Below are positions 17,820-20,224 of a stretch of DNA of 64,000 nt, piece by piece. Under the pieces are notes generated by a model. That model was not told the origin of the DNA. It searched no databases and saw only the letters and a list, made by a program, of their open reading frames with translations. Within the stretch, counting starts at the first letter, position 1, and each line of letters opens with the position of its first letter. Position numbers and translations under genes: made by a program. The DNA lies in contig NZ_RQUY01000002.1 in NCBI RefSeq assembly GCF_003992125.1, positions 62,001-126,000 of the forward strand, given 5' to 3'. The stretch is from Veillonella caviae. GTDB taxonomy: Bacteria; Bacillota; Negativicutes; Veillonellales; Veillonellaceae.

Positions 17820-19061
17820 ATGACATTAGAAGAAATACGTAGTAAAGCTTTAGAAATGGCGGAACCGCAGTTTAAACAATTTGAGCCTATTGCATTAGCG
17901 AATACTAAAAAAGTATTAGAAGCATTCAAAAAATGCCAAGTATCTGATTATCATTTTAATGGTACCACTGGTTATGGCTATAATGATAGTGGACGAGAAA
18001 AATTAGATGAAGTATTCGCCTATGTATTTAAAGGTGAAAAAGCACTCGTAAGACCTCATTTTGTATCAGGTACTCATGCATTGGCTACCACATTGATAGC
18101 TCTCATGGGGAATGGTTCCAATGGTTCAGAATTCATCTATGCTGTAGGGGCTCCTTATGATACGATGCAATCCGTCATTGGTGCTGCACGACCTGTTAGA
18201 GGCTCTTTAATAGAGAAAGGTTTTACTTATACAGAGGTACCATTAAAAGATAATACTTATGATTTAGAAGCTATTAGAAATGCAGTAAATTCTAATACGC
18301 GCACAGTTGTGATTCAACGATCCCGTGGATATAGCACTCGTGAACCATTATCTATTGGGGATATTAAATCTATCGTAGACGTAGTGAAAGCAAAGAATCC
18401 TAATACTATATGTTTTGTAGATAATTGTTACGGTGAATTTACAGAACTACAGGAACCATTAGAAGCCGGCGCTGATATTATGGCTGGATCGCTTATTAAA
18501 AATGCTGGTGGTGGATTGGCGCCAACAGGTGGTTATATTGTAGGTCGTCAGGACTTAGTAGAAGATGCTGCATATCAATTAACAGCTCCAGGACTAGGTG
18601 ATCACATGGGTTCTTACACACCAGGGTATCGTTTATTCTTCCAAGGTTTATTTATGGCTCCTCATGTTGTATTGCAAGCATTGAAAGGTGCTGTATATAC
18701 AGCGGCTGTAGGCGAATTATTAGGTTATGATGTATTCCCTAAGGTTGATGCAAAGCGCTATGATTTAATTCAAGCCATAAATCTTGCTAATGGGGATGAA
18801 ATGGAACAATTTTGCCGTGGTATGCAAGCCTATTCCCCGGTAGATGCTCATGTTCATCCCGTTCCAGGGGATATGCCTGGTTATGAGGATAAGATTATTA
18901 TGGCTGGTGGAACTTTCGTTCAAGGCTCTTCTATTGAGTTAAGTGCAGATGGTCCTGTTCGTTCACCATATACTATTTTTATGCAAGGTGGACTTGTATT
19001 TGAACATTCTATGCTTGGCATTCTCGGTGCAGCAGAAGAAATTTTGAAATATCGTTCTTAA
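17820..19061 (+). CDS. PLP-dependent methionine gamma-lyase-like protein (YnbB/aluminium-resistance family)
   Basis: The 413-residue protein belongs to the Cys/Met-metabolism PLP fold, in the subfamily annotated as aluminium resistance or YnbB. The PLP lysine is in AGSLIKNAGGGLAPTGGYI (about residue 225), preceded by FVDNCYGEF with the cofactor-binding Asp. The N-terminal YHFNGTTGYGYNDSGREKLD is highly typical. In Bacillus the homologue lies in the miaA-hfq-ynbB-glnR region, so its place after miaA is conserved. The physiological reaction is not settled. The 85-base gap upstream is AT-rich and ends in GGAGAGTTAAGG. Confidence 0.88.
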   Translation: MTLEEIRSKALEMAEPQFKQFEPIALANTKKVLEAFKKCQVSDYHFNGTTGYGYNDSGREKLDEVFAYVFKGEKALVRPHFVSGTHALATTLIALMGNGSNGSEFIYAVGAPYDTMQSVIGAARPVRGSLIEKGFTYTEVPLKDNTYDLEAIRNAVNSNTRTVVIQRSRGYSTREPLSIGDIKSIVDVVKAKNPNTICFVDNCYGEFTELQEPLEAGADIMAGSLIKNAGGGLAPTGGYIVGRQDLVEDAAYQLTAPGLGDHMGSYTPGYRLFFQGLFMAPHVVLQALKGAVYTAAVGELLGYDVFPKVDAKRYDLIQAINLANGDEMEQFCRGMQAYSPVDAHVHPVPGDMPGYEDKIIMAGGTFVQGSSIELSADGPVRSPYTIFMQGGLVFEHSMLGILGAAEEILKYRS

Positions 19062-19071
19062 ATGGTATAGT
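19044..19071 (+). promoter_or_regulatory. Putative extended -10 promoter for mnmA
   Basis: TTGAAA (19044-19049), a 16-base spacer, and TATAGT (19066-19071) preceded by TGG make an extended -10 promoter. It overlaps the 3' end of the preceding gene. Transcription would start near 19078, exactly at the first of two tandem hairpins. Confidence 0.5.
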
Positions 19072-19074
19072 ATT

Positions 19075-19138
19075 ACTACTCGGACTTTTACCCCGATTTA
19101 GTGTTTATCACGTCAGGCTTTCACCCTGATAGTTTTTT
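19075..19138 (+). promoter_or_regulatory. mnmA leader with two homologous tandem hairpins
   Basis: Two 18-base units, TCGGACTTTTACCCCGAT (19080-19097) and TCAGGCTTTCACCCTGAT (19113-19130), share 14 of 18 positions. All four differences are transitions. Each folds into a short stem closing a CTTTYACC loop. One stem pair changes from G-C to A-T between the copies (positions 3 and 15), and pair 5-13 is A/C in copy 1 but G-C in copy 2. Six T follow copy 2 (19133-19138), then AAAGGAG and mnmA. Conserved loops on covarying stems suggest a repeated RNA recognition element. I do not recognise the class. Confidence 0.6.
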
Positions 19139-19162
19139 GTCTAGTGACTTAAAGGAGAAAGA

Positions 19163-20224
19163 ATGGAAAAAGTTATTGCTGTAGCAATGAGTGGAGGCGT
19201 AGACAGTTCATTAACAGCTGCTATGCTATTAAAACAAGGTTATAAAGTATTTGGTATTACACTATGGCTCTGGGTGAGTGGTACACCGTATGATTCGGTC
19301 CCTCTAGCAGTTACAGATGCTAAAAAAATGTGTGATTTTCTCGGCATTGAACATCATGTTATCGATGCACGAGATATATTTTATGATAATGTGGTAGATT
19401 ATTTTGTAAAAGAATATGCTTATGGTCGTACACCAAATCCATGTGTATTCTGTAATAAAAATATTAAATTCGACCTCATGCTTAATAAAGCGTTAGAACT
19501 GGGTGCTACGCATATGGTGACTGGTCATTATGCACAGGTTAATTATAATGAAACTACAGGCCTTTATGAGTTACATAAGGGGATTGACCCTACTAAGGAT
19601 CAAAGTTATGTGATGTATAATATGAATCAACGCATTCTTAGTCATCTTATGTTCCCATTAGGTGGACAATGTAAGACTGAAACTCGTAAAATGGCAGCAG
19701 AATTTGATTTGCCCGTTGCGAAAAAACCAGATAGCGTCGATATTTGTTTCTTACCTCATGGAAATTATCAAAAATTAGTACAAGAGGAAATGAAATCTAA
19801 GCCTAAAGCTGGTAATATTGTTACTGAAGATGGTGAAGTCTTAGGTCGTCATACAGGTCTATTTAATTACACTATTGGGCAACGAAAAGGTCTTGGTATT
19901 GCTTATAAACATCCATTATACGTTATTGGATTTAATGGAGAGAAAAACGAAGTCATTGTAGGTCCTAATAATCGATTATTTACGAAGCGTATGATTTGTA
20001 AATTCTATAATTTTTTAGATGATACAATTCACAAAGAATTACATGCGGAGGGTAAAATTCGCTATGCTGCAAATCCATCCCCATGTGTAGCTCGTATATT
20101 AGATGATGAAACGATGGAAGTTATTTTTGAAGAACCTCAACGTGCTATTACACCTGGCCAATCTGTAGCATTCTATAACGGCACTCAATTGCTAGGAGGG
20201 GCTGTTATCGATCAGGTATGTTAG
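19163..20224 (+). CDS. mnmA: tRNA-specific 2-thiouridylase MnmA
   Basis: MnmA thiolates U34 of tRNA Lys, Glu and Gln using ATP and relayed sulfur. It has the PP-loop AMSGGVDSSLTA (residues 8-19). The two catalytic cysteines lie in TPNPCVFCNKNIKF (near residue 95) and SVDICFLPHGNY (near 194), both intact. The C-terminal domains include NYTIGQRKGLG. The 353-residue length is normal. AAAGGAG lies upstream, after a structured leader described separately. Confidence 0.97.
   Translation: MEKVIAVAMSGGVDSSLTAAMLLKQGYKVFGITLWLWVSGTPYDSVPLAVTDAKKMCDFLGIEHHVIDARDIFYDNVVDYFVKEYAYGRTPNPCVFCNKNIKFDLMLNKALELGATHMVTGHYAQVNYNETTGLYELHKGIDPTKDQSYVMYNMNQRILSHLMFPLGGQCKTETRKMAAEFDLPVAKKPDSVDICFLPHGNYQKLVQEEMKSKPKAGNIVTEDGEVLGRHTGLFNYTIGQRKGLGIAYKHPLYVIGFNGEKNEVIVGPNNRLFTKRMICKFYNFLDDTIHKELHAEGKIRYAANPSPCVARILDDETMEVIFEEPQRAITPGQSVAFYNGTQLLGGAVIDQVC

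Follow-up and report, generated by a model that had tools for sequence, protein, structure and literature searches.

A conserved hairpin upstream of mnmA in Veillonellaceae and a sister family resembles the anticodon arm of MnmA substrates and is probably an autoregulatory operator

Introduction

Anticodon-arm mimics autoregulate ThrRS in E. coli, where the thrS operator, upstream of the enzyme gene, contains two leader hairpins shaped like an anticodon arm, in imitation of the tRNA on which the enzyme itself acts (PMC9976931). In yeast, an anticodon-like mimic autoregulates HisRS, and repression is relieved by the substrate tRNA (PMC6542539). MnmA thiolates U34 of the Glu, Gln and Lys tRNAs, recognizing the anticodon through its C-terminal domain and the minor groove of the stacked D and anticodon stems through its central domain (PMC8584467). 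Candidate motifs have also been published for Veillonella, at potE, ilvD, gltD and ldh2 (PMC8632094), and they share with the element described here that they are RNA elements found by comparative genomics upstream of Veillonellales/Negativicutes genes; the main text of that paper describes no motif at mnmA and mentions neither mnmA nor trmU.

The mnmA leader analyzed here lies in a Veillonella window, by which we mean the whole 64-kb stretch of DNA. Like the thrS operator, it has a seven-base loop matching the loop of a substrate tRNA, conserved in the leader of a gene for a tRNA-binding enzyme. In contrast to ThrRS, MnmA is a tRNA-modifying U34 thiolase and not an aminoacyl-tRNA synthetase, and the leader is hence a variant of the thrS kind that falls outside the synthetase set; moreover, the two leaders have no sequence relation, binding by MnmA is proposed from likeness, and one arm suffices in most relatives. 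The yeast system shares with mnmA an enzyme and an anticodon-like hairpin in the enzyme's own mRNA, and relief by substrate tRNA is likewise proposed for mnmA, but HisRS is eukaryotic and a synthetase, and its hairpin lies in the coding region. Among the open papers searched, we found no report of MnmA autoregulation or of anticodon mimics of modification enzymes. What would be new here, judging from the leader and by analogy, is an anticodon-mimic operator for a tRNA-modifying enzyme, a device already known for synthetases.

Results

The features of the leader and the gene are listed below.

19044..19071, + strand: predicted mnmA promoter (consensus scan), -35 TTGAAA 19044-19049, extended -10 TATAGT 19066-19071
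19080..19096, + strand: putative anticodon-arm mimic 1, stem TCGGA/CCCGA, loop CTTTTAC 19085-19091; covariance model 26.7 bits
19113..19129, + strand: putative anticodon-arm mimic 2, stem TCAGG/CCTGA, loop CTTTCAC 19118-19124; covariance model 29.0 bits
19133..19138, + strand: six-T run 3' of mimic 2, terminator-like by consensus scan, in this genome only
19151..19161, + strand: Shine-Dalgarno AAAGGAG 19151-19157, running into GAAAG 19157-19161 (sequence)
19163..20224, + strand: mnmA, tRNA 2-thiouridine(34) synthase, 353 aa, CxxC-C type (PNPCVFCN ... DICF), by NCBIfam equivalogs

The gene was identified by the NCBIfam equivalogs PRK00143 and trmU, both over cut-off, and the PDB relatives of its product include 2der. 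An extended -10 promoter, already proposed in a preliminary description of this DNA, was recovered by the consensus scan with TTGAAA-16-TATAGT spacing and TG ahead of the -10; it overlaps the 3' part of the upstream ORF, and the transcript is predicted to start at about 19078. The upstream neighbor (17820-19061) encodes a PLP-dependent enzyme that is a remote relative of cystathionine/methionine lyases and scores under all curated cut-offs. The MnmA proteins of the window and of the other Veillonellaceae have the CxxC-C (iron-sulfur type) motif PNPCVFCN, and a simple motif search did not find the CxxC-C pattern in the MnmA proteins of the sister family.

The preliminary description had reported two homologous 18-base units in this leader, and a recount agrees: the units, 19080-19097 (TCGGACTTTTACCCCGAT) and 19113-19130 (TCAGGCTTTCACCCTGAT), are 33 bases apart from start to start and 14/18 identical, the four differences are all transitions, and the swap of one stem pair from G-C to A-T (pair 82-94 versus 115-127) is genuine. 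The conserved loop needs a small correction, as CTTTYAC stands but the loop proper has seven bases and not the eight of CTTTYACC. The six T after the second unit also reappeared, as a terminator-like site at unit 2 in the consensus scan, and the Shine-Dalgarno downstream of that unit is present. Perfect matches to the degenerate unit pattern in the 64 kb are only these two units, and with three or fewer mismatches there are 4 matches against 0.28 expected. When the window was scanned with a covariance model, unit 2 scored 29.0 bits, unit 1 26.7 and the next match 9.6. Folding of the whole leader was no better than that of shuffled sequence (z = -0.75), and the support for an RNA element is comparative, not energetic.

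As RNA, each unit has the seven-base loop CUUUYAC on a stem of four or five pairs, which is the anticodon-arm layout C32 U33 U34 U35 Y36 A37 C38. Mimic 1 has four pairs plus an A.C mismatch at the fifth and a Lys-like anticodon triplet, UUU (19087-19089), while mimic 2 has five pairs, the fifth being G-C, and the triplet UUC (19120-19122). The corresponding tRNA arms of this genome are ccgcc-CTTTCAC-ggcgg for Glu, cctga-CTTTTAA-tcagg for Lys and acgga-CTTTGAC-tccgt for Gln. Loop 2 (CTTTCAC) and the tRNA-Glu(UUC) loop have the same sequence, and loop 1 (CTTTTAC) is intermediate between the Glu and Lys loops. The likeness to the tRNA-Glu(UUC), Lys(UUU) and Gln(UUG) arms consists of the seven-base loop, U33-U34-U35, A37, C32 and C28-G42. 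The preliminary description had missed this point: to judge from the sequence, the element is an anticodon arm of tRNA, and the arm in question is the one found in the substrates of MnmA itself. Unlike these tRNAs, the leader arm lacks D, T and acceptor arms and is therefore not a tRNA gene, and RF00005 gave no match at the mnmA leader locus, in the genome itself or in the window. The stem differs from that of tRNA-Glu and is closest to that of tRNA-Gln; because a CGGA/TCCG stem is also found in tRNA-Leu(UAA) and Phe, the specificity of the match rests on the loop.

A covariance model trained on mnmA leaders only, with no tRNA information (R1), gave 17.6 bits for tRNA-Gln, 13.6 for the two tRNA-Lys genes and 11.6 for tRNA-Glu when applied to the tRNA loci of this genome, making these the best three sense-strand tRNAs. 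tRNA-Met (11.4 bits) and Gly(UCC) (11.1 bits) follow just behind tRNA-Glu, and some of this ranking is built in by the loop.

The description of a duplicated, conserved and covarying RNA element held up in related genomes, where at least one unit was present upstream of mnmA in 40/40 genomes of two families. These comprise 29 genomes of Veillonellaceae (four genera including the window's, with Veillonella infantium among the relatives; all 29 upstream sequences read) and 11 genomes with mnmA of a sister family, presumably the Dialister group (ten leaders read, the eleventh, G035, placed by the R1 model position). A CTTTYAM hairpin precedes mnmA in 29/29 and 11/11 of them, against a background of 13 such hairpins per 800,000 strand-bases. 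In the sister family, the arm is CGGA-CTTTCAM-TCCG and lies near the start of the predicted transcript; the window's MnmA is ~45% identical to those of that family, and the rest of the leader is unalignable between the families. It is mimic 2 that has a counterpart in all 40 genomes, always in the same orientation. Two arms occur in 13/15 genomes of the window's genus, and one arm in G007 of that genus and in the other three genera of Veillonellaceae, so duplication is not essential. In another Veillonella genome (G002, leader L014), arm 2 is kept and the place of arm 1 is taken by an unrelated hairpin of seven pairs, GTATTCC-TAGTAT-GGAATAC.

The tally of variation covers 17 distinct arm sequences. 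All leaders share C32, U33, U34, U35 and A37 and the C-G pair 28-42, as do all three MnmA-substrate tRNAs; the leaders vary at 36 (C/U) and 38 (C/A), loop positions where the substrate tRNAs differ. Pair 29-41 is G-C, A-U or G.U, pair 31-39 is A-U or G-C, and the outermost stem pair is often unformed. The covariation score was above all 500 shuffles and every slid register. In the genera of Veillonellaceae other than the window's, a small internal loop separates the arm from a second helix beneath it, six to seven pairs long (ATACAT/ATGTAT), much as an anticodon arm sits on a D stem.

Across 381 genomes of the class, strong R1 matches occurred only at mnmA in the two families, where, among the matches examined, the element was the top genome-wide match only at mnmA and at no other gene. 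The few matches away from mnmA in other genomes include tRNA-Gln genes; 20 scattered matches were retrieved, and those that were read lay inside ORFs, were lone intergenic hairpins away from mnmA, or were tRNA-Gln genes. One intergenic locus away from mnmA (L131, G154:C2:210208) is a near-perfect inverted repeat (ccaaaacaATTCGGA...TCCGATTgttttgg) whose loop reads CTTTCTA.

The arm was not found upstream of mnmA in 74 other Negativicutes, namely 16 of the family that includes Megasphaera, 4 of a further family (f4) and 54 others, whose leaders had no match above 14.2 bits compared with 24-34 bits for true copies. The preliminary description had held that an absence from other Negativicutes would speak against it: the element is conserved in Veillonellaceae and the sister family, and it is absent in Megasphaera and the remaining Negativicutes. 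A generic YUUUNRN anticodon-like hairpin upstream of mnmA was no more frequent than expected in 77 diverse bacteria of many phyla (3 versus 1.7). These absences argue that the arm device is an invention of one Veillonellales branch, retained where mnmA is equipped with a promoter and leader of its own. In the Megasphaera family, mnmA directly follows an ORF that by eye resembles the end of a cysteine desulfurase (SAGSAC), which corresponds to the yrvO-mnmA arrangement known from Bacillus (PMC5372745); unlike there, mnmA in the window is not preceded by a cysteine desulfurase gene.

Discussion

The preliminary description suggested that the element binds a protein and controls mnmA, which the comparison supports as probable, and the match to the substrate arms points to a likely binder. 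We think it likely that the mnmA leader is an autoregulatory operator that mimics the anticodon arm of MnmA's substrates. The leader would carry one or two mimics of the tRNA-Glu/Lys/Gln anticodon arm; when MnmA outnumbers unmodified substrate tRNA, it would bind the mimic in its own mRNA and translation would be lowered, and when unmodified tRNA-Glu, Lys and Gln are abundant or MnmA is scarce, the tRNAs would compete MnmA away and mnmA would be translated. We infer the binding by MnmA, the repressive sign and translation (not termination) as the controlled step by analogy with the thrS operator and yeast HisRS. The arm is a good fit to the known tRNA contacts of MnmA.

To our knowledge, how the levels of tRNA-modifying enzymes are set in cells is largely unknown. 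If our reading is true, the leader would couple mnmA expression by direct feedback to the need for s2U34 on tRNA-Glu, Lys and Gln, and modification enzymes would join synthetases as users of the thrS principle. The mimic is also a small (17-base) natural RNA for studying recognition by MnmA, and it offers a search rule, as the leaders of other tRNA-modifying enzymes may hold their own substrate arms.

The output part of the leader seems to differ between clades. The arm lies about 20 to 65 bases from the start codon in Veillonellaceae and about 20 to 95 over all leaders, and therefore simple steric occlusion cannot be the rule. In one genus of Veillonellaceae the end of the arm adjoins the Shine-Dalgarno, and in several leaders of that family ensemble folding left the Shine-Dalgarno as free or slightly freer with the arm folded, the latter of which would fit activation. 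In about half of the leaders of the sister family, an ATCCTT just 5' of the arm is predicted to pair with the Shine-Dalgarno AAGGAT. In four leaders of that family (L088, L089, L090 and L092), strong variable hairpins between the arm and the ribosome site bring these two segments close, which suggests a junction of several helices with the Shine-Dalgarno pairing as the closing helix.

It is also conceivable, if rather unlikely, that the mimic is itself thiolated, with MnmA converting U34 of the leader to 2-thiouridine, so that the mRNA would report thiolation capacity (sulfur supply, MnmA activity). If so, the modified base would change pairing or enzyme retention, and the leader would be a self-reporting, chemically modified switch.

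Proteins other than MnmA also recognize these anticodon arms, among them MnmE-MnmG, a glutamyl-tRNA synthetase with tRNA-Gln as a second substrate, or an anticodon nuclease, and any such binder of UU-N anticodon arms could control mnmA in trans. With its closest loop match in Glu and a Gln-like stem, the element would suit such a protein, but the protein's own operator would be expected at its own gene, and the element is found only at mnmA. MnmE-MnmG act also on anticodons without U35, which makes MnmA the better explanation of the invariant U35, and we consider control by another of these proteins improbable.

We give little credence to a purely cis-acting structure in which the CUUUC loop or the 5' flank would pair with the purine-rich ribosome-binding site and so adjust translation, for instance according to temperature, with no protein involved. 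The GAAAG at 19157-19161 is the complement of the CTTTC in the mimic loop, and GAAAG is overrepresented by the Shine-Dalgarno, as it occurs in the mnmA ribosome-binding site of two of the four genera of Veillonellaceae (the window's and g4) and of the sister family compared with 7-17% of sampled genes; pairing between it and the loop is frequent among predicted folds, and the ATCCTT/AAGGAT pairing points the same way. However, GAAAG is absent in the two other genera of Veillonellaceae, which keep the arm, and pairing in cis does not account for why A37 is invariant, why the loop has exactly seven bases, why stem changes compensate each other or why the arm matches MnmA substrates. As a general mechanism, a loop-to-Shine-Dalgarno switch was rejected, the ensemble folding effects being weak and inconsistent between clades.

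A conserved loop on a covarying leader stem is typical of small-molecule riboswitches and of sites for RNA-binding proteins at large, and the likeness to an anticodon arm could then be coincidental. It is very doubtful that this applies here, as the chance that a seven-base loop equals one of the three substrate loops is about 3 in 16,384 by a simple count with equal bases, and 15-17 conserved bases are few for an aptamer. No Rfam family, including mini-ykkC, the PyrR site and T-box, gave a match at gathering score in the window, in agreement with the earlier view that the element is distinct from these three.

Attenuation, which the preliminary description had considered and by which hairpin 2 and the six T would end transcription before mnmA, can hardly be maintained, since the terminator-like site is called in this genome but all other leaders keep the hairpin with the T-run broken or absent (other Veillonella have GTTTTATG at that position, where a T-run is lacking in the remaining genera), so that no U-tract conserved in relatives accompanies the hairpin. 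A DNA operator for a transcription factor would suit two imperfect, near-palindromic units just after the promoter that overlap the transcription start, but is scarcely credible when the conserved part is an asymmetric loop, the orientation is fixed, the stems contain G.U pairs and no such site was found at any other gene.

In most Veillonella genomes (leaders L003-L013), a further inverted repeat lies 5' of arm 1, about 114 bases upstream of mnmA (e.g., TTGCTATAATTTCATAGCAA), with a compensating change from TTGCTAT/ATAGCAA to TTACTAT/ATAGTGA; it is absent in the window. As this repeat overlaps an extended -10 sequence, it may be an RNA hairpin of a transcript from an upstream start or a feature of the promoter.
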